This document shows positions 3,706 through 19,403 of a stretch of DNA of 64,000 nt, piece by piece. The notes beneath the pieces were generated by a model. The model was not told the origin of the DNA and did no database searches. It was given only the letters and a program-made list of their open reading frames with translations. Within the stretch, counting starts at the first letter, position 1; every line of letters begins with the position of its first letter. Where the stretch lies: assembly GCF_026247885.1 (NCBI RefSeq), contig NZ_CP110921.1, forward strand, positions 2,599,001-2,663,000. The letters are read 5' to 3'. Source of the stretch: Methylococcus mesophilus (GTDB lineage: Bacteria; Pseudomonadota; Gammaproteobacteria; Methylococcales; Methylococcaceae). The translations under genes were made by a program, and so were the position numbers.

Positions 3706-4254
3706 ATGCCTTGCACCGCTGCCTTTACGTTGATCGAGCTCATGGTCGGAATCGCGGTGGCAGCCATACTCATCACCGTGGGCATTCCCGGCTTCCGCGA
3801 CCTGATTTTGGACAACCGCATGGCGGCCCAGATCAATTCGCTGGTAGCCGACTTGAGTTACGCCCGCAGCGAGGCCGTGAAGCGCAATAGCGCGGTCACT
3901 GTATGCAAGCGGAATATCAACGGCACTGCCTGCGACGATTCGAGAAGCTGGACGGACGGATGGATCGTCCTGGCTGGCACGACAGTACTGCGGGTTCATG
4001 AATCCGTGTCATCGGGCATGGCTATGAACCTCAAATATACGGGGAGCAACAAAGTTGTGTATGACGGTAAAGGCTTCCTGAACGGCGTGAACAATGGCAC
4101 CTTCATCTTCTGTGACGGCCGGGGTTACACCAAAGCCCGAGGTCTGGTGCTGGCAATGACGGGACGCCTGAGGACCACCCGCGACGACGACGGCGATGAC
4201 ATCCAGGAGAAAGGCAGTGATCGCACCAATATTTCCCAAGACGACTGCAGCTAA
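3706..4254 (+). CDS. fimT: Minor type IV prepilin, FimT/GspH family
   Basis: A 182-residue prepilin-like protein with a very short leader (MPCTA) before AFTLIELMVGIAVAAILI, a classic class III signal with Glu at +5 and a hydrophobic N-terminal helix. The residue before the predicted cleavage site is Ala, not the usual Gly. The globular part carries paired cysteines and resembles the FimT/GspH domain. Such minor pilins are processed by PilD and help prime pilus assembly at the inner membrane. It is the first gene of the fimT-pilV-pilW-pilX-pilY1-pilE run and its 3' end overlaps pilV. No prepilin peptidase gene is in the window. Confidence 0.85.
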   Translation: MPCTAAFTLIELMVGIAVAAILITVGIPGFRDLILDNRMAAQINSLVADLSYARSEAVKRNSAVTVCKRNINGTACDDSRSWTDGWIVLAGTTVLRVHESVSSGMAMNLKYTGSNKVVYDGKGFLNGVNNGTFIFCDGRGYTKARGLVLAMTGRLRTTRDDDGDDIQEKGSDRTNISQDDCS

Positions 4255-4858
4255 CGCGGACGCCTGCTGCCCTCTCCGCTCGTGTAAAGGCTTCACCCTC
4301 ATCGAAGTGCTCATCAGCGTTTTCGTCTTCGCGGTGGCGCTGCTGGGGCTCGCCGCCCTGCAGATCACCGCCCGCAAAACCGCGTTCGAATCCGCCCAGC
4401 GCAGTCTGGCCGCAGCCATCGCCCAGGACGTGCTGGAGCGGATGCGGCTGAATACCGAAGCCCTGGCCAGCTACACCGCGACCATCAACGCGAACACCAC
4501 GTTCAGCGACTCGCTCGACTGCACGGGGCCGGCCAACCTCGCGGCCTGTGACCGCCGCGACTTCCAGCGCAGTCTGCTGGGCTCCACCGAAACGACCGGC
4601 ACCGGCGCGAACACCTCCAAGGTGGGTGGGTTGGCCAACCCCACGCTGTGTGTGACCAGCAGCAACGCCGGTGGCTCCGGCCGGTACACCGTCACCATCG
4701 TCTGGCGCGGGCGGGACCAGTCCCTGCCGGAACCCGGTTCGGAAAACGAGTCCGATACCTGCGGCAACGGCCAATATGGGACCAACAACGAATACCGCCG
4801 GATCTTCCGGCTCAGTACCTATATCTGCCGGGAAGGCATCAGCGGAGGGTGCATCTGA
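4217..4858 (+). CDS. pilV: Type IV pilus minor pilin PilV
   Basis: A prepilin with the class III signal KGFTLIEVLISVFVFAVALLG, cleaved after Gly, followed by about 170 residues containing the pattern usual for PilV (LAAAIAQDVLERMRLN). I chose the GTG at 4217 because AGGAG lies seven bases upstream; an in-frame ATG at 4196 has a poorer ribosome site. The gene overlaps fimT by 38 bases and ends 2 bases before pilW, so translational coupling is likely. In related systems PilV joins PilW, PilX and FimU/T in the tip complex that carries PilY1. Confidence 0.88.
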   Translation: MIAPIFPKTTAANADACCPLRSCKGFTLIEVLISVFVFAVALLGLAALQITARKTAFESAQRSLAAAIAQDVLERMRLNTEALASYTATINANTTFSDSLDCTGPANLAACDRRDFQRSLLGSTETTGTGANTSKVGGLANPTLCVTSSNAGGSGRYTVTIVWRGRDQSLPEPGSENESDTCGNGQYGTNNEYRRIFRLSTYICREGISGGCI

Positions 4859-4860
4859 GC

Positions 4861-5931
4861 ATGAAAATTCCGACACAGGGCGGCCATCCGGGATTTTCCA
4901 CGGTGGAACTGCTGATATCGATGGTGCTAGGCCTTTTGGTCGTCGGCGCCATCGGCAGTCTGTTCGTGCAGCACAAGACCAATTACCGCCAGAACGAACA
5001 ATTCGCGCTGATGCAGGAAAACGGGCGCTTCGCTCTCAACTTGCTGGCCAGCGACTTGGCGCTGGCGGGATTCTGGGGCGGCGCCGATTGCAAAAACATG
5101 ACCAACTGCCCTCCCGCCTCGGCCATCAACGTCCAGAACGACTGCGGAACTAACTGGACCACCACGACGACGCCCTCGGCTCCGGCGACGCACTACCTCA
5201 TGGCGCCGTCGGCAGGCTCGGCTCCGGCCGATTGGCCCTGCTTCAACTCCGGCGACTATCTCAAGCCTGGAACCAACCTGCTTGTCCTCAAGCATGCCGA
5301 AGGCAATCCCGTCTATTGCAAAACCGGATCGGCCGACGACTTCGCCGGACTGATCTACCTTCAAACCAGCGGCTCAGCCGGCAGCCTCGTCAAATCTCCC
5401 GTCCCGCCCGACTGCCCGGCCTCCGCCACTGCAACCGCCTTTTGGCGGTACATCGTCCACGTCTATTACATCAGTCGAGGCTACTCGGCGACACAATGCG
5501 CCAACAACCCCACCGATCCGCGATGCGTTCCCAGGCTGGTACGAAAGACTTTGGGCCGACAAACCGGAAACCCCATCATTTTCGAGTTGGGCGACGGCGG
5601 CGAACTCGCCGAAGGAATCGAATACTTCCATACCGAATTCGGCATCGACGATGGCGACGGCAGCATGACCGACGATTCCTGCGACATGGACGGCATCCCA
5701 GACAGGTATCTCTCCTCCGTCGCCGATTACGACGCCATCACTCCCGACGAACTCGACTGCGCCATCAGCGCAAGAATCCACGTCCTGGTCCGTAGCACGC
5801 AATCCGATTCAAGCTACACTGATGATAAAACTTATACATTCGGCACGGTGACACTGGGGCCGTTCCGTGACCACTTCCGACGGAAGGTGTTCACGACCAC
5901 GGTGCAGTTGCGGAACCAGCAATATCACTGA
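4861..5931 (+). CDS. pilW: Type IV pilus minor pilin PilW
   Basis: 356 residues starting at an ATG immediately after the pilV stop, with GGAGGG upstream. The class III signal is GFSTVELLISMVLGLLVVGAI, with Gly at -1 and Glu at +5. The large C-terminal globular region with several cysteines fits PilW. Near residues 260-280 it has an acidic stretch (DDGDGSMTDD), a plausible cation-binding loop but not a proven one. PilW and PilX are needed for surface export of pili and PilY1 in characterised species. Next in the operon is pilX, 28 bases downstream. Confidence 0.88.
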   Translation: MKIPTQGGHPGFSTVELLISMVLGLLVVGAIGSLFVQHKTNYRQNEQFALMQENGRFALNLLASDLALAGFWGGADCKNMTNCPPASAINVQNDCGTNWTTTTTPSAPATHYLMAPSAGSAPADWPCFNSGDYLKPGTNLLVLKHAEGNPVYCKTGSADDFAGLIYLQTSGSAGSLVKSPVPPDCPASATATAFWRYIVHVYYISRGYSATQCANNPTDPRCVPRLVRKTLGRQTGNPIIFELGDGGELAEGIEYFHTEFGIDDGDGSMTDDSCDMDGIPDRYLSSVADYDAITPDELDCAISARIHVLVRSTQSDSSYTDDKTYTFGTVTLGPFRDHFRRKVFTTTVQLRNQQYH

Positions 5932-5959
5932 GCATTTCGTCGGAAGGGAGGAAGCGGCG

Positions 5960-6640
5960 ATGGCCCGGAAAAGAAGCTCGCAGAACGGCGCCGCCCTGGT
6001 CGTCGGCATGCTGTTCACGATCGTACTGACGGTACTGGGCATCGCGGCGATCCACTCCAGCAGCACCAGCGTCCGCATGGCGCGCAACGCCGAGGCCCGC
6101 ATCAACGGCCTGCAGCAGGCTCAGGCGGCGTCCGACTACGTCGCGGCGGAGGCGCTCGATCTCAACCTGGACCGGATGGGCAGCCATGCGCGCTGCACCG
6201 CAAGCTATCCCTATGGCGGCTGCAACGGCCTGTCGCTGCCCACCCTACCCTCGCCGCTGCTGACGCCCCCGGTTCACGTCCGGGTGCGGAGCAGCGTCGC
6301 CTTCGGCTCTTCCAAGAGCGAGGAGAGCAACAAGGTCTTCGAACGCGTCATCGACAGCGATTATGACGGCTCGACCGCCGAATCGTCCGCCGATGCCACC
6401 CGTGTCGGCGTGGTATCCGCCGTGCGCGGCACCATCGTCTCCAGCGGTTCGGTGCGCTACGACAGCGAAACCCCCGACCCGACGCCGACACCCGCCGCAA
6501 CGCCCGCGCCCACCCCCTCGGACGACGGCGACCATGAAGGAGACGACGACCACGAGGATGGAGATGGAGATCACGACGGCGGGGACCATGAAGATGACGG
6601 GGAGCAGGACGACGGTGAGAACGAGGGAAACCATAGCTGA
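5960..6640 (+). CDS. pilX: Type IV pilus assembly protein PilX with Asp/His-rich C-terminal tail
   Basis: 226 residues; the ATG is preceded by GGGAGG. The N-terminus (QNGAALVVGMLFTIVLTVLGIAAI) is the PilX_N membrane helix, followed by the usual RMARNAEARINGLQQAQAA segment. The family part ends around residue 170. A Pro/Thr linker (TPTPAATPAPTPS) follows, then about 39 residues made almost entirely of Asp, His, Glu and Gly, ending at the C-terminus. Ordinary PilX proteins have no such tail. It looks like a flexible, strongly acidic, His-containing metal- or cation-binding extension. The next gene, pilY1, has a similar tract near its N-terminus. Confidence 0.88.
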   Translation: MARKRSSQNGAALVVGMLFTIVLTVLGIAAIHSSSTSVRMARNAEARINGLQQAQAASDYVAAEALDLNLDRMGSHARCTASYPYGGCNGLSLPTLPSPLLTPPVHVRVRSSVAFGSSKSEESNKVFERVIDSDYDGSTAESSADATRVGVVSAVRGTIVSSGSVRYDSETPDPTPTPAATPAPTPSDDGDHEGDDDHEDGDGDHDGGDHEDDGEQDDGENEGNHS

Positions 6641-6699
6641 TTGAATCCGGCCCCGGCCATTCCTTGCCCGGGCACGCCTGTCGAATTCGGAGAATAACA

Positions 6700-9600
6700 A
6701 TGAAAATCCAACCCGCAATCGTCGCAATCTCGATCGCCGCCCCCTTCTGCGTCAGCCGGGCGGACGATACCGACATCTATTTCGCCGGCGGCGGCTCGGT
6801 GGGCGGGAAGCCGCTGGTGATGTTCAGCCTGGACTACCGACCGAACCTGGGCGCAACGGTATGCCAGGGAAGCGGTGAGGAAGATGATGATGAACACCAT
6901 GACGAAAGCGGTGCCCAAAGCGGCGATGACCTGGGAGGCGACGATGAACATGAAGACGACGATCACGAACACGGCGACGACTGCCGCTCGCTGAGGACGA
7001 CGGTGTCCCCCAGTTCGGGAACGACCTATCTCCCCTCGAGCGGCGACGTCACTCATTTCGACCTGATCCGCGCCGCATTGCGCAAGACCATGGACGATCT
7101 CGGCACCGAACTCGCCGACGTCAAAGTGGGGCTCATGATCAACCACAACGACTCCACCACCGGCCAGTGCGGCGCCGGCCCCAGCGGCCAGTGCAGCAAC
7201 GGCGCCTACGTGCTGAGAGGCTTCAGCACCGACAAGGCGCGCTTCCACGACGCCCTGGCCCGGATTCCCGTACCCCAGGGCAACCTGGCCCACGACTTCC
7301 AGGGGAAGGAGCTCTATTTCGAGCTGTTCCGCTACCTGACCGGCCAGGGCATCTTCAACGGCCACAAGGGCTGGCAGGACTATGGCGACACCAACGCCAA
7401 CGACAATCTGGACGTCGACAATCCGGGCACGCCCTTCGATGACACCCTTCTTCAGTGGGACGGCACGATCGAGAACGGCGCCAATTACGTGAGCCCCCTG
7501 GCGGACAACTGCTCCAAGGTGTTCATGATCAACTTCATGTTCCAGGTCTCCAACAAGGACAACGACTCCGACAGCTCGATCAGGCAGAGCAAAGGTTCGG
7601 GCGGCATGAACGGCCTCAATCCAGGCACCAGCAACAGCGCCTTTGCCAACGTCATCCGCTGGATGCGCGACGCCGACCTGGCGGACGGCACCTACGGCAG
7701 CGCCGGCAACCTGGAAGACGTGCAGAACGTCACCTCGTATTTCTTCGTCGCTCCTACGCACATCAACACCACGACCAACAGTTACGCGACCGCCGGCGGA
7801 ACCAACGCCGCGCTTCCCCTCAGCACCGACCCGGAGCTGTTGATCGCGTCGCTCAAGGAGGTCTTCAAGGAAGTGCTCAGCGTCAGCGCCACCTTCGTCT
7901 CGGCCGCCTCGCCGGTCAACGTGTTCAACCGCACGGAGTCGCTGAACCACGTGTTTTTCTCCATTTTCCAGCCCGAACAGGCCCCCCGCTGGAACGGCAA
8001 CCTGAAACGGCTCAAGCTGGCGTCCGACCCCACGACGCACCGGCTCAAGGTCCTGGACGCATCCAGCCCGCCGATCGAAGCGATTTCCAGCGTCGACGGC
8101 AGGATCAAGCACGAAGCGCTCACCTACTGGACCGGCGCCTCCGGCTTCGACGTGCAGACCTATGCCGATACCACCAAGGGCGAGGTGGTGGGGAAGGACG
8201 GCCGCAGCGTGGGCCGCGGCGGCGGCGGCCAACGGATTCCCGGATTCCTGACGAACTCGCCCGGCGACGGTAACTCCACCAGCGGCGCCCGGAAGCTCTA
8301 CACCGAACCCGACAGCCTGAGCAACGGCAGCGCGACGGCCCTGCGCGCACTGAACGCCGACTCCACCACCGCGACCGCGGTCTGGAGCACGCTCCGCCTG
8401 AACGGGGCGAAAAGCGGCGACGCCTGGAGCGATGCCGCAACCTTCGGTGCCGCCACCAGCGACGATCAGGCCACAGCCGTGAAGCTGCTCAAGTTCGCGC
8501 GGGGACAGGACGCCAATGACGAAGACGGCGACGGCAATTACACCGAGGCTCACCCCTGGGCATCGCCCGCCAACCAGCTCAAGCGCAAGTGGCTGATGGC
8601 CGATCCGCTGCATTCGGCCGCCGTGCCGCTCAACTACGGTGCGCGCACCGGCTATTCGCGGGACGTTCAGGACGTCCGGATCCTGGTCTCCGGCAACGAC
8701 GGCTTCCTGCACATGTTCCGCAATTCGGCTTCGGGAAGCTCCACCACCGAATCGCCCAGCGGCGTGGAGGACTGGGCCTTCATCCCCCGCCGGCTGCTCG
8801 GCAACCTCAAGCCGCTCTCGGACAACGGCGCGGCGACCTCCCACGTTTACGGGCTCGACGGCACTGTGGCGGTCTACGTCAACGACATGGACCGCGACGG
8901 CACCGTGAACGGCTCCGACCAGGTCATCGCCTTCGTCGGCATGCGCCGGGGCGGTAAAGGCTATTACGCGCTCGACATCACTAATCCCGACAGTCCCAAG
9001 ATGCTCTGGACGATCGAGAAGAACGACGCCAGCGGAAACTTCGACGAACTCGGCTACAGCTTCTCGGATCCCACCATCGCCCAGCTCGACTGGGGCGAGG
9101 GGCGCAAACCCGTGATCATCTTCGGCGGTGGCTACAGCACCAACAAGGACGAATCCAGCACGGCGAATGCCAGGAATGGAGCGGCCGGCACCGACGACAC
9201 CCAGGGCAACGCGATCTACATCGTGAACGCCAAGACCGGTGCGCTGATCTGGAAGGCAAAACAAGGCTCAAGCGCTGCGTCTGCGACGACGTTCCAGCAT
9301 TCCGGGCTGGCCGACAGCATCCCCTCCAAGGTCACCGCGGTCGATACCGATGAAAACGGTTCGGTGGACCGCCTGTACGTCGGGGATACCGGCGGGGTGC
9401 TCTGGCGCGCCGACCTTGCCTACGTGAAACAGGACGGCACCACGTCCTACAACGAGCCTGCGCACTGGACCGTCACGCCCGTGCTTTCGGTCGGCCGCCA
9501 TGCCGGACAGCCGGACCGGCGCTTCTTCCACCGCCCGGACTTCGTGCCAACCTCCGCCGGCTCAAGCCGCTTCGATGCCATACTGATCGGCTCCGGCGAC

Positions 9601-10134
9601 CGCGAGCACCCGCTCGACACCAACGTCCAGAACCAGTTCTACATGTTCAAGGATACCCATGTCGCCAGCGGGTCGCCGCCCACGGGGTCGGCCAAGACCG
9701 TGACCGACCTCGACAACCTGACGAGCTCGACCACCGTCCATACCGACAAATCCGGCTGGTACATCGACATCGGCAGTTCGGCCAGCGGCGAAAAAGTGCT
9801 TTCCAGCCCGCTCACCTACAACGGTTCGGTCTATTTCGGCACCTATGCGCCTCAGGGCGGGAGCGTTTCCGGACAGTGCGGGCCCAACGAGGGCGAATCG
9901 CTGACCTACGTCGTCCGTCTCGCCGACGCGTCCGGCGTTTTCAACTTCAACACCGCGACGGCGGCCAACGAGCGTTTCACCGCCACCGGCAGGGGATTGC
10001 CCAGCGACCCCGTCACCGTCGCCGTCAACGGTAAGCTCTACGTCACTGCCGGCAACCTGCCGGCGAATTCCGACCTGTCCAAGCCGGTCGGCAATTCCGG
10101 CATCAGCCGGCTCTACTGGTACGAAAAGGAGTGA
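6700..10134 (+). CDS. pilY1: PilY1/PilC-type pilus tip adhesin and biogenesis factor
   Basis: 1144 residues with a signal peptide (residues 1-21, ending VSRA). The N-terminal third has a von Willebrand A-like layout, but the usual DxSxS metal site after the first strand is replaced by LDYRPNLG. Between Cys55 and Cys95 sits a tract of Asp, Glu and His (about residues 60-94). The C-terminal half is the PilY1/PilC beta-propeller, with the calcium site DTDENGSVD (about 882-890). Further Asp-rich DxDxDG-like loops lie near residues 607 and 729. In other bacteria PilY1 caps the pilus, mediates adhesion and controls retraction through Ca2+. The start was chosen at the ATG with CGGAG upstream. Pfam-level function is sure; the acidic loop's role is not known. 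Confidence 0.92.
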   Translation: MKIQPAIVAISIAAPFCVSRADDTDIYFAGGGSVGGKPLVMFSLDYRPNLGATVCQGSGEEDDDEHHDESGAQSGDDLGGDDEHEDDDHEHGDDCRSLRTTVSPSSGTTYLPSSGDVTHFDLIRAALRKTMDDLGTELADVKVGLMINHNDSTTGQCGAGPSGQCSNGAYVLRGFSTDKARFHDALARIPVPQGNLAHDFQGKELYFELFRYLTGQGIFNGHKGWQDYGDTNANDNLDVDNPGTPFDDTLLQWDGTIENGANYVSPLADNCSKVFMINFMFQVSNKDNDSDSSIRQSKGSGGMNGLNPGTSNSAFANVIRWMRDADLADGTYGSAGNLEDVQNVTSYFFVAPTHINTTTNSYATAGGTNAALPLSTDPELLIASLKEVFKEVLSVSATFVSAASPVNVFNRTESLNHVFFSIFQPEQAPRWNGNLKRLKLASDPTTHRLKVLDASSPPIEAISSVDGRIKHEALTYWTGASGFDVQTYADTTKGEVVGKDGRSVGRGGGGQRIPGFLTNSPGDGNSTSGARKLYTEPDSLSNGSATALRALNADSTTATAVWSTLRLNGAKSGDAWSDAATFGAATSDDQATAVKLLKFARGQDANDEDGDGNYTEAHPWASPANQLKRKWLMADPLHSAAVPLNYGARTGYSRDVQDVRILVSGNDGFLHMFRNSASGSSTTESPSGVEDWAFIPRRLLGNLKPLSDNGAATSHVYGLDGTVAVYVNDMDRDGTVNGSDQVIAFVGMRRGGKGYYALDITNPDSPKMLWTIEKNDASGNFDELGYSFSDPTIAQLDWGEGRKPVIIFGGGYSTNKDESSTANARNGAAGTDDTQGNAIYIVNAKTGALIWKAKQGSSAASATTFQHSGLADSIPSKVTAVDTDENGSVDRLYVGDTGGVLWRADLAYVKQDGTTSYNEPAHWTVTPVLSVGRHAGQPDRRFFHRPDFVPTSAGSSRFDAILIGSGDREHPLDTNVQNQFYMFKDTHVASGSPPTGSAKTVTDLDNLTSSTTVHTDKSGWYIDIGSSASGEKVLSSPLTYNGSVYFGTYAPQGGSVSGQCGPNEGESLTYVVRLADASGVFNFNTATAANERFTATGRGLPSDPVTVAVNGKLYVTAGNLPANSDLSKPVGNSGISRLYWYEKE

Positions 10135-10140
10135 GCGGAC

Positions 10141-10626
10141 GTGGCTGAACCGAACGGAAAGGTAAGCGCTTTCCCTGGCTTCCGGGCGGCAGACGGCCGG
10201 GAGTCTGCCCCGGACTTGATCCGGGGAGGGCAGGGATTCTCGCTGATCGAACTGATGATCACTGTGGCCATCATCGGCATCCTCGCCGCCGTCGCCTACC
10301 CGTCCTACAAGGAGCACATCGTCCGGACCCGCCGCGCCGACGGCAAAGCCGCCCTGCTGCGGGCCGCCGCGCGCGAGGAGCAGTACTTCATGGACAACAA
10401 GACGTATACGAGCGACGTCACCAGACTCGGTTTCGCCTCCAACGGGAAATCCGACGAAGGCTATTACGTCATTTCCGCGACCACCGCCGACGCCAACACC
10501 TTCGCGCTGCAAGCGACGCCGCAGAGTCCGCACACCGACGCACTCTGCGGCAACCTGACCCTGAACTCCCTGGGTGTGAAAGGAAAGTCCGGCTCGGGTT
10601 CCGTTGCCGATTGCTGGAACTGGTAA
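10141..10626 (+). CDS. pilE: Type IV prepilin, PilE family, with a long leader
   Basis: 161 residues starting at a GTG six bases after the pilY1 stop, with AAGGAG nine bases upstream. The prepilin core [28 protein letters not shown] is typical, with Gly at -1. The leader is 32 residues, against the usual 6-10 for type IVa prepilins, and its DNA contains a palindrome (10208-10226). An alternative TTG at 10216 would give a 7-residue leader but has no visible ribosome site. The C-terminal part has two cysteines (ALCGNLTL and ADCWNW) forming the D-region. It is the last gene of the pilus operon and resembles the minor PilE that closes such clusters. Confidence 0.88.
10208..10226. repeat. Palindrome inside the pilE leader region
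   Basis: A perfect inverted repeat CCCCGGA-CTTGA-TCCGGGG located within the coding sequence for the unusually long pilE leader. The sequence resembles a dispersed intergenic palindrome known from several proteobacteria, so it may have inserted between the ribosome site and the original prepilin start. Confidence 0.5.
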
Positions 10627-14639: not shown

Positions 14640-15122
14640 TCAGTGGTGGTGACCGCCGGGACCGTGGACGTGGCCGTGTTCGAGCTCTTCGGAGGTTGCA
14701 TCGCGGATTTCGGCCACTTCGACGTCGAAATGCAGGGTCATGCCGGCCATGGGATGGTTGCCATCCAGCACCACCTCTCCTTCCAGCACTTCCAACACCG
14801 TCACGATCTGCATGCCTTCGTTGGATTCGGCATGGAACTGCATGCCGGGCAGGATTTCGTCGACGCCTTCGAATGCGTCGCGCGGCACCGCCTGAACCAG
14901 GTTCTCGTCGTGCAGGCCATAGGCTTCTTCGGGCGGAACGGTGACCTTGAAGCTGTCGCCGACGGTCCGGCCGGTCAGCGCCTCTTCGAGGCCGGAAATG
15001 ATGTTGCCCAGCCCGTGGATGTAGGCCAGCGGCTCGTCCGCGCTGGAGCTGTCGAGGACGTCTCCCTCGTCGTTGGTTAGGGTATAGTGGATGAGAACAA
15101 CCTTGTGGGGGGAGATTTGCAT
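14640..15122 (-). CDS. FKBP-type peptidyl-prolyl isomerase, SlyD-like
   Basis: 160 residues from the ATG encoding MQISPHKVVLIHYTL. The layout is that of SlyD: a short FKBP domain (LDSSSADEPLAYIHG, GLEEALTGRTVGDSF) interrupted by an insert-in-flap chaperone domain (EEAYGLHDENLVQAVPRDAF). The protein ends in a His-rich tail, GHVHGPGGHHH. SlyD proteins isomerise prolyl bonds, chaperone unfolded chains and bind nickel or other transition metals through such tails. The tail here is short compared with enterobacterial SlyD. AGGT precedes the start; longer in-frame starts (for example an ATG 12 codons upstream) are less likely. Confidence 0.88.
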   Translation of the reverse strand: MQISPHKVVLIHYTLTNDEGDVLDSSSADEPLAYIHGLGNIISGLEEALTGRTVGDSFKVTVPPEEAYGLHDENLVQAVPRDAFEGVDEILPGMQFHAESNEGMQIVTVLEVLEGEVVLDGNHPMAGMTLHFDVEVAEIRDATSEELEHGHVHGPGGHHH

Positions 15123-15276
15123 GGGAATACCTGCTGAGATTGGAATCGCCATCATAGTCTTTTTCCCCGGATGCAGACAGGTTTTCGACGTCACAGCGGA
15201 CGGTGGACGGCTCCCCCCATCTTCTCCCGCCTGACCGGGATCCGTCCCTTTTCGAGAATACTCCCGGTCCTCCCCG

Positions 15277-16302
15277 ATGCCGCATTTCCGCATGGCGCCC
15301 CGTTCCTCGCGCGCGGCCGCCCTGCTCTGTTGTCTGCTCGCAGGCTCTGCTCGCGCCGGTGACGAAGCCGAGGCGGTTTCCGAACATCCGGCCCGGGTGG
15401 CACAAGAATTCGGGGTCGTACTTGAACCGGCGCGGCAGCGACTCGCCGGCATCGAAACCCGTGTCCTGGAGGCCGTCGAATACCAGCCCGAGACGCGGTC
15501 GTTGGGCCGGATCGTGGACATCCAGCCGCTGCTCGAGCTGCGCTCGCGCTACCGCGCGGCCCAGGCCGACGCCAAGATCACCGACGCCGCCCTTCGGCTC
15601 GCCCGCAAGAACCGCGACCGGCTCGCCAGCCTGCACAGCGAAGCCATCGTCGCCACCCGCGAACTGATCCATGCCGAATCCCAGCTCGCCGCCGACGAAG
15701 CGCGGGCCGTGACGGCACGCCAGCATCTCCGGGAATTGCAGGAGGAAGGCCTGCAGGTTTGGGGGGCCGAGCTTTTCAAGGCCGCCGTGGCGGGGGACTC
15801 CCGCTTGTTCGACGACCTGCTGCAACGGCGCCGGGTGCTGATCCTGGTCACCCTGCATCACAACCAGGCTCTGCCCGCGGACGCTTCCCGCGTCATGGTG
15901 GCGCGCGAGGGCGACCGGCAGGCGGCGCAGCCCGCCGAACTGGTCTCGGCGGCGCCGAGAACCGACGACATCGTGCAAGGGGAAACCTGGTTCTTCCACA
16001 CCGACGCCCGCAAGCTGCGCACCGGAATGCGCATCGAGGCCTGGATTCCGGTATCGGGCGAAAAGCTGAGCGGCGTCGTGATTCCCCGCTCGGCGCAGGT
16101 CTGGCACGAGGGCCGGACCTGGGTCTACCTGCGGGCCGCGGAAGACCGTTTCATCCGGCGCCCGGTGGACGCCCACCGCGACTACGGCGACGCCTGGTTC
16201 GTCGATGCCGGCATCGCGCCGGGCGAGTCGCTGGTGACACGGGGAGCCCAACTCCTGCTGTCGGAGGAACAGCGCCACGCGATCCCCGAAGAGGACGACT
16301 GA
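15277..16302 (+). CDS. RND efflux periplasmic adaptor (membrane fusion protein), compact
   Basis: 341 residues with a signal peptide (ALLCCLLAGSARAG). The mature protein has the order of an HlyD/CusB-like adaptor: a first strand region, a coiled-coil hairpin (RSRYRAAQADAKITDAALRLARK and the return helix to about residue 155), then beta-barrel and membrane-proximal regions (IEAWIPVSGEKLSGVVIP). Such adaptors link an inner-membrane RND pump to an outer-membrane channel. The first half of the lipoyl-like domain before the hairpin looks abbreviated. Its stop codon overlaps the pump's start codon (TGATG), so the two are translationally coupled. No outer-membrane factor follows. Confidence 0.82.
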   Translation: MPHFRMAPRSSRAAALLCCLLAGSARAGDEAEAVSEHPARVAQEFGVVLEPARQRLAGIETRVLEAVEYQPETRSLGRIVDIQPLLELRSRYRAAQADAKITDAALRLARKNRDRLASLHSEAIVATRELIHAESQLAADEARAVTARQHLRELQEEGLQVWGAELFKAAVAGDSRLFDDLLQRRRVLILVTLHHNQALPADASRVMVAREGDRQAAQPAELVSAAPRTDDIVQGETWFFHTDARKLRTGMRIEAWIPVSGEKLSGVVIPRSAQVWHEGRTWVYLRAAEDRFIRRPVDAHRDYGDAWFVDAGIAPGESLVTRGAQLLLSEEQRHAIPEEDD

Positions 16303-19300
16303 TGCTGGGGCCGGTGGTCCGCTTCGCCGTGCGCCGCAGCGGCGTCGTGGTCGCGCTCGCCGTCCTGCTGGCGGCCTACGGCCTGTACCGCGCGGCGACG
16401 GCGAAACTGGACATCTTCCCCGAATTTTCCGCCAAGCGGGTGGTGGTACAGACCGAGGCCCAAGGCCTCACCGCCCGCCAGGTCGAGACCCTCCTGACCC
16501 TGCCCATCGAACGGAAGCTGGCCGGCATCGTCGGGCTGGACACCCTGCGCTCGGAGTCGATCCAGGGCTTGTCGGTGGTGACGGCAGTGTTCGAGGACGA
16601 CACCGACCTCTACCGCGACCGGCAGCTGGTGAGCGAGCGCTTGGCGCTCCTGGCCGGGCAGCTTCCGGAGGGCGCCGGCACGCCTGTGCTGGTGCCGCTG
16701 TCCTCCTCTTCGGCCACAGTGCTGACGCTGGGCCTGACCGCCAAAACGGTCAGCCCGATGGAACTGCGGACCCTGGCGGACTGGGTAGTGACGCCGCGTA
16801 TCCTCGCCGTACCGGGCGTCGCCGACGTCAACGTCTTCGGCGGCGCGGTGCAGCAGTTGCAGGTCGAAGTCGACCCCGCACGGCTCAAGCGCTTCGGCTT
16901 GGACCTCAACGCCGTGAGCGTGGCGGTGCGCCAGTCGTTCCGCACCCAGGGCGCCGGCTTCGTGGAGAACGAGAACCAGCGTTTGGCCCTTCAGGTCACG
17001 GGCCTCCCGCTCGGCCCGGAAAGCCTCGGCAACGTCATCCTCAACCGTTCGCCCGGCGCGGTGCTCAAGCTGCAGGACGTCGGGACGGTCGCTTTCGGTC
17101 CCAGGCCGCCGATCGGCGCGGCCGCGGTCAATGGCGCCGCCGGGATCGTCATGATGGTGATCGGCCAGTATGGCGCCAACACCCTCGAGGTATCGCGCGG
17201 CGTGGAACGCGGCCTGGCGGAACTCGCCCCCGTGCTCGCCGAACAAGGCGTGACGCTGCATCCCCATCTCTTCCGCCCCGCCGACTATATCGAGCGGGCG
17301 CTGGACAGCCTTGCCGGCCACCTGTTGGCGGGCGGGCTGCTGGTGGTGGCGGTGCTCTACGCCTTCCTGTACAACCTCCGCAGCGCCCTGATCTCCGCGG
17401 TGGCGATCCCGCTCTCGCTGCTGGGCGCCTTCGTGGTGCTCCAAGCCTTCGGCGTCAGCCTGAACCTCATGGTGCTGGGGGGACTGGCGATCGCCCTGGG
17501 TGAAGTCGTCGACGACGCCATCATCGACACCGAGAACATCTTCCGCCGGCTGCGGGAAAACCGCGCCGCTGCGCTTCCCCGCCCGGCGCGCGAGGTCGTT
17601 TACGAAGCCTCCATGGAAGTCCGCGGTTCGGTGGTTTACGCCAGTTTCATCGTGGCCCTGGTGTTCGTGCCCCTGCTGGGGCTGGGCGGGGTCGCCGGCC
17701 GTCTGTTCGCGCCGCTGGGCTATGCCTACATCGTCGCCATCCTGATCTCGCTGGCGACCGCGCTGACCGTCACGCCCGCGCTTTGCGTCGCCCTGCTGGC
17801 GGGCTCGAAGGAAACCGCCGGGACGCCGCCGCTGATCCGTTGGCTCCAGCCCCTTTACGGGCGATGGCTGCGGCGGACCGCGAAGCGGCCGGGACGGCTC
17901 GCGGCCGGCAGCCTCACGATCTGCATCCTGGCGGTTGCCCTGGCACCCGGGCTGGGCGGGGACTTCCTGCCGCGCCTGCGCGAGGGGCATTACATCGTGC
18001 ACACGGCCAGCCTCCCCGGCACCTCGCTGCAGGAGTCGCTGCGCATCGGCGGCTTGATCGTGCGCGCCATCCTGCAGATTCCCGGCGTCGAATCGGCCTC
18101 GCAATGGGCGGGGCGGGCCGAGCGCGGCGCCGATACCTATGGCAGCCATTACAGCGAATACGAGGTGCGCCTCCACCCAATGTCCGGCGGCGAACAGCAG
18201 GCCGTGCTGGACCGGCTGCGCGGACTGCTGGAAGGCTTTCCCGGGATACGCGCCGAGGTGAACACCTTCCTGACCGAGCGGGTCAACGAGACCATTTCGG
18301 GCTACACCTCGCCGGTCGCGGTCAACCTGTACGGCGACGATCTGGACCTGCTGGACCGGAAAGCACGCGAGCTCGCGGCCGAGATCGGCAAAGTCGCGGG
18401 AGCCGCGGACGTACAGCTACGCTCGCCGCCCGGCTCGCCGCTGGCGGAAATCCGGCTGCGGCCCGATCAGCTCCAGATCTGGGGGCTGCGTCCGGGAGAC
18501 GTCATGGATGCCGTGGACACCGCCTTCGCCGGCCGGACCGTGGGCCGCTTCGCGCTCGGCCAGCGCATCTTCGACGCTGCCGTCATCCTCCGGCCGGACC
18601 TGCGGCATTCGCTCGAGGGGCTGCGCGAACTACCGCTCAAAGGCCAGGACGGCATTCTCGTGCCCCTCGGCGAGGTGGCCGAAGTCGCGGAAACCGGGGA
18701 GCGCTACAACATCCTGCACCGCGGCGGCCGCCGCATCCAGACCGTGACCGCTGGCGTCGAGGGACGCGACCTCGCCTCGTTCCTGGAGGAAATGCGGACC
18801 CGGCTGGACGCAGTGCTGAAACGCTCGTCCGGCGTTTACGGGGAGATAGCCGGCGCCGCGGTAGAACAGGGCATCGCCCGGCGTGACCTGATCGCCCGCG
18901 CCTGCCTGGCCGGCGGCGGTGTGCTGATCCTGACCTATCTCGCGATCGGCAGCTTTCGGCACACCGTCATCGCCCTGGCCAACCTGCCGTTCTCGCTGGC
19001 CGGCGGGGTGCTGGCGGCGGTATTGTCCGGCACCAGCCTTTCGGTGGGCGCGCTGGTCGGCTTCGTGACGCTGTTCGGCATCACCATCCGCAACTCCATC
19101 ATGCTGCTTTCGCATTACCGCCATTTGGTGGAAAGGGAAGGGCAGAACTGGAACCTCGACACCGCCGTACAGGGCGCCCAGGAACGCCTGCCGTCGATTC
19201 TGATGACGGCGCTGGTGACCGCCCTGGCGATGCTGCCCATCGCCATCGGCAGCGACAATCCGGGGCGGGAGATCATGGGGCCGATGGCCGCCATCATCAT

Positions 19301-19403
19301 CGGCGGACTGCTCTCTTCCACCTGCCTCAATCTCGCTCTGCTGCCGGCGATGCTGCTGCGCTGGGGCCGGTTTTTTCGAAAACCGGTAGAATGTCGCCCG
19401 TGA
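16302..19403 (+). CDS. RND efflux pump, heavy-metal (CzcA/CusA-like) family
   Basis: 1033 residues, normal for an RND transporter. It begins VVRFAVRRSGVVVALAVLLAAYGLY, then KLDIFPEFSAKRVVVQTEAQGLTARQVE, a pattern of the HME (heavy-metal efflux) branch. The duplicated 12-helix plan is visible, with two large periplasmic loops. The fourth helix region contains the acidic proton-relay motif GEVVDDAIIDTENI. It should export a divalent or monovalent metal cation or an organic substrate from the periplasm or cytoplasm with its adaptor. The specific metal cannot be read; the usual three-Met copper-site context was not verified. It overlaps the adaptor gene by 1 base. Confidence 0.9.
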   Translation: MLGPVVRFAVRRSGVVVALAVLLAAYGLYRAATAKLDIFPEFSAKRVVVQTEAQGLTARQVETLLTLPIERKLAGIVGLDTLRSESIQGLSVVTAVFEDDTDLYRDRQLVSERLALLAGQLPEGAGTPVLVPLSSSSATVLTLGLTAKTVSPMELRTLADWVVTPRILAVPGVADVNVFGGAVQQLQVEVDPARLKRFGLDLNAVSVAVRQSFRTQGAGFVENENQRLALQVTGLPLGPESLGNVILNRSPGAVLKLQDVGTVAFGPRPPIGAAAVNGAAGIVMMVIGQYGANTLEVSRGVERGLAELAPVLAEQGVTLHPHLFRPADYIERALDSLAGHLLAGGLLVVAVLYAFLYNLRSALISAVAIPLSLLGAFVVLQAFGVSLNLMVLGGLAIALGEVVDDAIIDTENIFRRLRENRAAALPRPAREVVYEASMEVRGSVVYASFIVALVFVPLLGLGGVAGRLFAPLGYAYIVAILISLATALTVTPALCVALLAGSKETAGTPPLIRWLQPLYGRWLRRTAKRPGRLAAGSLTICILAVALAPGLGGDFLPRLREGHYIVHTASLPGTSLQESLRIGGLIVRAILQIPGVESASQWAGRAERGADTYGSHYSEYEVRLHPMSGGEQQAVLDRLRGLLEGFPGIRAEVNTFLTERVNETISGYTSPVAVNLYGDDLDLLDRKARELAAEIGKVAGAADVQLRSPPGSPLAEIRLRPDQLQIWGLRPGDVMDAVDTAFAGRTVGRFALGQRIFDAAVILRPDLRHSLEGLRELPLKGQDGILVPLGEVAEVAETGERYNILHRGGRRIQTVTAGVEGRDLASFLEEMRTRLDAVLKRSSGVYGEIAGAAVEQGIARRDLIARACLAGGGVLILTYLAIGSFRHTVIALANLPFSLAGGVLAAVLSGTSLSVGALVGFVTLFGITIRNSIMLLSHYRHLVEREGQNWNLDTAVQGAQERLPSILMTALVTALAMLPIAIGSDNPGREIMGPMAAIIIGGLLSSTCLNLALLPAMLLRWGRFFRKPVECRP

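Follow-up and report, generated by a model that had tools for sequence, protein, structure and literature searches.

The window (the whole 64,000-nucleotide stretch analysed here, part of the single 4.34-Mb contig of a Methylococcus genome, hereafter G000) contains a minor-pilin operon on the forward strand (3706-10626, +; from ORFs with Pfam and NCBIfam matches). In order, and all on the + strand, these are a FimT/GspH-type gene (3706-4254), pilV (4196-4858), pilW (about 4861-5931, its start counted by hand), pilX (5960-6640), pilY1 (6700-10134) and a PilE/ComP-type pilin gene (10141-10626). The minor pilin PilX (226 aa) has the PF14341 PilX N-terminal domain (PilX_N; E=7.1e-10, 39.2 bits vs. 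a cut-off of 25.5), and the tip protein PilY1 (1144 aa) has the C-terminal T4P_PilY1 beta-propeller (PF05567; E=3.2e-21, 76.2 bits vs. a cut-off of 28.1) and matches PDB 3hx6 (E=8e-14). With GspH, PilV, PilW and PilX matches upstream of pilY1 and a ComP-type pilin downstream, the gene has the minor-pilin neighbours of a PilY1/PilC tip protein. Within the same operon, PilW has an Asp-rich stretch of its own at residues about 246-284 (about 5596-5712; 14/39 Asp/Glu/His), DDGDGSMTDDSCDMDGIPD, which resembles a calcium-binding loop and is found as a shorter version in relatives. Outside the operon, the C-terminal part of a cation-transporting ATPase lies upstream (34-642). About 4.7 kb downstream, past other genes, there is an RND pump of the AcrB type next to its partner gene (15277-19403).

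Two tracts rich in Asp, Glu and His are encoded in neighbouring genes of this operon. PilX runs through a Thr-Pro linker (6470-6520, +) into a C-terminal tract of 39 residues (188-226; 6521-6637, +) with the composition D15 E6 H5 G9 N2 Q1 S1, i.e., 26 of 39 residues are Asp, Glu or His and nine are Gly, with no Lys or Arg. The PilY1 tract proper is also 39 residues long (56-94; 6865-6981, +), with D13 E7 H5 G7 S3 Q2 A1 L1 (25/39 Asp/Glu/His, no Lys or Arg), and is exactly bounded by Cys55 and Cys95, which we infer to close the loop (6862-6984, +) by a disulfide. A six-frame scan of all stop-to-stop frames of at least 60 aa found these two tracts to be the only sites in the window with at least 16 Asp/Glu/His per 33 residues, and the chance of such a composition in a 39-mer, given the background of the protein itself (binomial), is 3e-17 for PilX and 7e-14 for PilY1. 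The presence of both tracts, in genes of the tip complex, had been pointed out in a sequence-only reading of this DNA, and is confirmed by coordinates, composition, binomial excess and GC3 (see below); its description of the PilY1 tract is refined here by the two bounding cysteines, which it did not mention.

In many cases a run of GAN and CAN codons simply mirrors a membrane helix encoded on the other strand, an artefact that GC3 and homology rule out for the pil tracts. GC3 in the stated frame is 0.83 for PilX and 0.86 for PilY1, vs. 0.59 for the long antisense ORF at 6571-9264 (897 aa), and on the same two grounds the PilX and PilY1 frames are retained and this ORF is rejected as a gene. 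Across the G000 genome, nine consecutive GAN/CAN codons occur at 57 places, five of them within the PilY1 tract, in a scan that is blind to glycine-broken tracts of the PilX type. The first 30 places, which are those covered by the locus rows (22 other places outside PilY1 fall beyond them), correspond to 27 distinct rows and 13 sites, with a hydrophobic opposite strand in each row and a higher GC3 on that strand in 22 of the 27. This shows only that uninterrupted GAN/CAN runs are seldom genuine protein sequence in this genome.

The PilY1 tract lies in an N-terminal, divergent von Willebrand A (VWA) domain (about residues 34-400; 6799-7899, +), assigned by fold or homology, and more precisely in the connection between strand 1 and helix 1, i.e., the MIDAS loop of such a domain, a spot where canonical PilY1 proteins likewise have variable insertions. 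Where the DxSxS of a MIDAS is expected, the window has D45-Y-R-P-N49 (6832-6846, +; from alignment column counts), and the motif DxSxS...T...D is degenerate across the 11 rows of the subfamily to which this protein belongs: the first D is present in 11, the first S in none (R in 10, Q in one), the second S in none (N in 11), the T in one and the last D in one. The 14 canonical rows used for comparison were picked by DxSxS, so that only the T and D columns are independent, and the loop alignment is uncertain. Three histidines, His149 (7144-7146), His198 (7291-7293) and His222 (7363-7365; span of the three codons 7144-7365, +), are invariant in 11/11 subfamily rows and are His in 0/14 canonical PilY1 rows, where the His222 column is a gap; Cys55 is also present in 11/11 subfamily rows. 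The subfamily with D-Y-R-x-N in place of DxSxS and three invariant His (N-domain alignment of 11 genomes, 6700-7960 in the window) has members in Methylococcus, in two further genera of its family and in three genomes from beyond the order. Further downstream, the beta-propeller match (residues 654-916; 8659-9447, +) includes a calcium-type loop D-x-D-x-N-G-x-x-D (residues 882-890, counted from the alignment; 9343-9369, +). Its counterpart in P. aeruginosa PilY1 (3hx6) is the aligned loop DxNxDGxxD, and it has N, not D, at the fifth place of Dx[DN]xDGxxD.

Pfam VWA matched none of eight N-domains, and a PDB sequence search likewise gave nothing related to the N-domain; it recovered the 3hx6 propeller and one chance-level match (E=0.29). 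The structure model of the N-domain was poor (4 sequences, mean pLDDT 35.8, 357 of 440 residues below 50), and because this holds for the whole model, low pLDDT over the tract is uninformative. Foldseek with this model gave no match at E<=0.001. The second match, weak at E=5.6e-3, was to the mammalian Pactolus I-domain (PDB 2iue), which we take to be an I-domain with a lost metal site and for which we know of no acidic tract; PilB of Streptococcus sanguinis, matched by the same low-confidence model, is described as a modular pilin with a grafted VWA domain, not a PilY1.

To place the tracts among relatives, six Methylococcus genomes were compared (G000, G021, G041, G003, G017 and G093), all of which yielded PilX and PilY1. 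The Cys-Cys loop of PilY1 is 39 residues long in G000, G021 and G041, 28 in G003, 27 in G017 and 36 in G093, and is Asp/Glu/His-rich in 6/6, the weakest being that of G003 (13/28, with two Arg). The PilX tail is found in three of the six (G000, G041 and G093); in G003, G021 and G017, PilX terminates within the Thr-Pro linker, and the gap between pilX and pilY1 is 25-28 bp vs. 59 or 111 bp in genomes with the tail. The two tracts had been proposed to act together on the pilus tip, with constant co-occurrence among relatives as the check, and the three genomes that have the PilY1 tract and lack the PilX tail rule out an obligate pair. Loss is one-sided (PilX only), not random in both proteins, since every Methylococcus genome compared retains the PilY1 tract.

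Outside Methylococcus, the five subfamily loops have 4 (G067), 4 (G052), 7 (G480), 4 (G466) and 5 (G599) residues, none includes a tract (0/5), and no frame of these five regions reaches 13 Asp/Glu/His per 25 residues. A VWA domain with a degenerate MIDAS does not need the tract, because these relatives manage with loops of 4-7 residues; by the same observation (5/5 MIDAS-degenerate relatives outside the genus), the tract as an immediate replacement of the MIDAS is ruled out. In a wider sample drawn from 27 genomes outside Methylococcus, with 32 pil regions in total, some of them cut by contig ends, no PilX or PilY1 frame reached 13/25, and the two frames above this threshold were an Asp/Asn run in PilV (locus L148 of genome G105) and a frame of 122 aa, apparently non-coding (L145). 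At 15/25, a scan of 94 loci, many of them partial, gave matches in Methylococcus alone and also missed the weak G003 tract; a plasmid search returned eight distant records. Overall, the tracts are a genuine genus-specific elaboration of the pilus tip, are not obligatorily paired and show no evident link to copper, and the homologue comparison agrees with the earlier view that they stand outside the standard family architecture, as lineage-specific additions. The PilV Asp/Asn run, in another Methylococcaceae genome (ORF start near 4145), is independent of them and lies in what is also a tip-complex pilin.

Evolutionarily, a PilY1 tree from which the loop was excluded places G093 as the first branch in the genus, G003 as sister to G000 (89/95) and G021 with G017 (100/100), one inner fork being weak (57/32). 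The fewest changes that explain the PilX tail on this tree are three, probably one gain and two losses, and the tail could alternatively have been moved by recombination. In-frame tandem repeats, i.e., with periods divisible by three, were detected in pilX of G041 (15 bp x 4.6, 98%), G093 (24, 36 and 48 bp) and the window (21 bp x 2.1), as well as in the PilY1 loop of G041. The repeat units vary by species and the palette of Asp, Glu, His and Gly is constant; Lys and Arg are absent from 3/3 PilX tails and 4/6 PilY1 loops. This composition holds and His positions mostly do not, since both the number and the position of His shift between species, with as many as nine in the G041 PilY1 loop and 2-3 in those of G003 and G093. 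Neither Met nor Cys was found inside any of the nine tracts. The last ten codons of the PilY1 loop show only synonymous differences in four of the six genomes, and differ in sequence in G017 and G093. The RTX calcium-binding repeat motif is the nonapeptide GGxGxDxUx, and as GGxGxD does not occur in any of the nine Methylococcus tracts (PilX tails and PilY1 loops, inspected by eye), an RTX reading of the tracts is ruled out.

A segment that contains the loop (6857-7348, +) is nearly identical between G000 and G021, with 2 differences in 492 bp, for PilY1 proteins that are 92% identical overall and a G021 that otherwise groups with G017. It has apparently been recombined between the G000 and G021 lineages, as judged from this sequence identity. 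A second stretch of pilY1, in the bin 7600-7800, likewise shows 99% identity between the two, which suggests patchy recombination along pilY1 and means that exchange reaches beyond the tract.

We tentatively interpret the tracts as a weak, multivalent cation or electrostatic brush on the adhesive face of the tip, for which Ca2+ and divalents in general fit better than copper, a reading that we favour and still hold at somewhat less than probable. Two probably disordered, strongly negative and His-dotted segments would then be displayed on the type IVa pilus tip complex of Methylococcus. The Cys55-Cys95 loop of PilY1 would lie on the former MIDAS face of the VWA domain, at the extreme tip, and the optional tail of PilX, tethered by its Thr-Pro linker, would extend from the pilin directly beneath PilY1. 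This placement follows models from other species, as published, in which the pilus ends in the N-domain of PilY1, and PilX, directly beneath, is joined to the PilY1 C-terminus by strand addition (PMC11046646, PMC13190605). The most likely mode of action is bulk chemistry, in which a multitude of weak sites (carboxylate and imidazole) would concentrate Ca2+ and other divalents and would determine how charged and hydrated the adhesive face is, and tip adhesion or PilY1 stability may then depend on ambient cations. In M. xanthus, PilY1 function is reported to require calcium (PMC8833165).

Several observations argue for such a brush: an acidic, His-dotted composition persists while sequence and length change (nine of nine tracts are Asp/Glu/His-rich), the PilY1 tract has never been lost in the genus (6/6) and its end codons are synonymous among 4/6, it occupies the MIDAS loop that connects strand 1 to helix 1, and a putative calcium-type loop is retained in the propeller. 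Arguing against it, the PilX tail is missing in 3/6 and the G003 tract is short and weak (n=6 genomes), and repeat growth by itself can maintain composition. As for the cation-binding tip device envisioned in the sequence-only reading, the composition does suit cation binding, and what finds no support is the pairing and, in the sequence, a specificity for copper.

The same repeats lend themselves to another explanation, in which low-complexity sequence grew neutrally or nearly so, by in-frame tandem duplication of GAN/CAY-rich DNA at a tolerant variable loop and a free C-terminus, and has no function of its own. We consider this quite possible, if doubtful. It would account for periods divisible by three in pilX (G041, G093 and the window) and in the G041 PilY1 loop, for repeat units that are unlike between species, for a PilX tail missing in 3/6 and for the unrelated Asp/Asn run in G105 PilV. 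However, it sits less well with the absence of Lys and Arg from 7/9 tracts and the dominance of Asp/Glu/His/Gly-type residues despite divergence, as well as with a PilY1 tract kept in 6/6 and a loop end that differs only synonymously among four genomes, though ten codons are few.

Selection for variability of the tip surface is, in our opinion, unlikely to be the main explanation. Under this hypothesis, loop and tail would vary under pressure from pilus phages, predators or substrates and be swapped between species by recombination, their acidic composition being mainly that of a soluble, variable decoy. A tip-exposed loop that varies in length and sequence, at a spot that is variable across PilY1 proteins, and a 492-bp loop-bearing segment apparently imported between the G000 and G021 lineages are in line with this, but the residue choice is narrow, and the identity of the bin 7600-7800 extends the exchange beyond the loop.

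It is also tempting to speculate, improbable as it is, that a VWA adhesin lost its ordered MIDAS and rebuilt a cation dependence in two steps, i.e., a subfamily ligand face (D45, N49, H149, H198 and H222) followed by the Methylococcus-only disordered Asp/Glu/His loop over this face and the optional PilX tail. Such a "disordered MIDAS" would couple adhesion by the tip to the divalent metals of the surroundings.

Least credible is a joint device in which the tracts of PilX and PilY1 together capture metal, copper above all, at a specific site: Methylococcus depends on copper and each window tract has five His (the G041 PilY1 loop up to nine), but no tract contains Met or Cys, His are down to 2-3 in the G003 and G093 loops and the drift of their positions disfavours a specific copper site, the PilX half is missing in 3/6 genomes, and among Pfam and NCBIfam matches the operon includes no metal-transport gene, the RND efflux gene and its partner being located downstream beyond other genes. 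Pili that capture copper would be a striking case, but nothing in the sequence evidence points to it.

Among known systems, the VWA tip adhesins P. aeruginosa PilY1 and M. xanthus PilY1.3 share with the window protein the PF05567 propeller, a VWA-type N-domain, a minor-pilin operon and apparently a calcium-type loop in the propeller, and differ from it in that here the MIDAS is degenerate and a loop of 27-39 residues, rich in Asp/Glu/His and placed between two Cys, is specific to Methylococcus; the VWA domain of P. aeruginosa PilY1 is described as having a conserved MIDAS (PMC8806160). A flexible His/Asp/Glu-rich loop within a folded extracytoplasmic protein is reported for ZrgA, PA4063 and ZnuA (PMC9820375; PMC8561739), but these serve zinc import or trafficking and are more His-rich, whereas here the loop, with putative binding, belongs to a protein of the pilus tip. 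Both window proteins match pilus families and lie in a pilin operon, and are not zinc-import proteins of the ZnuA/ZrgA type; ZrgA matched one PilY1 subfamily row, at no better than E=2.5. The disordered ZrgA loop is reported to have 4-5 mostly low-affinity zinc sites and to be non-essential (PMC9820375), which shows what such loops are capable of, and also that they may be dispensable. TfcP of Myxococcus xanthus is reported to be a periplasmic cytochrome that was not found in purified pili and has a charged tail serving its own stability, the purified protein with this tail showing no detectable calcium binding (PMC8833165). In Methylococcus itself, the PilY1 homologue MCA0087 of M. capsulatus Bath is listed as a predicted, secreted tip adhesin (PMC4257694), and the titles and abstract openings of the papers listed yielded no report of such tracts in PilX or PilY1.

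These tracts may bear on how pilus tips adhere. The VWA domain of PilY1 is a leading candidate for the part that adheres at the pilus tip and senses surfaces, and its metal dependence is presumably supplied by the MIDAS. A subfamily that retains the VWA fold, with its MIDAS degenerate, and to which one genus has added a polyacidic loop dotted with His at the same spot, amounts to a natural experiment, which asks whether tip adhesion needs an ordered metal site or just a cation-binding surface. Since Methylococcus has strains with and without the PilX tail, part of this question is testable without engineering. Elsewhere in the window, an FKBP-type isomerase (14640-15521, -) ends in HGHVHGPGGHHH, a C-terminus reminiscent of the metal-binding tails of SlyD-like proteins.
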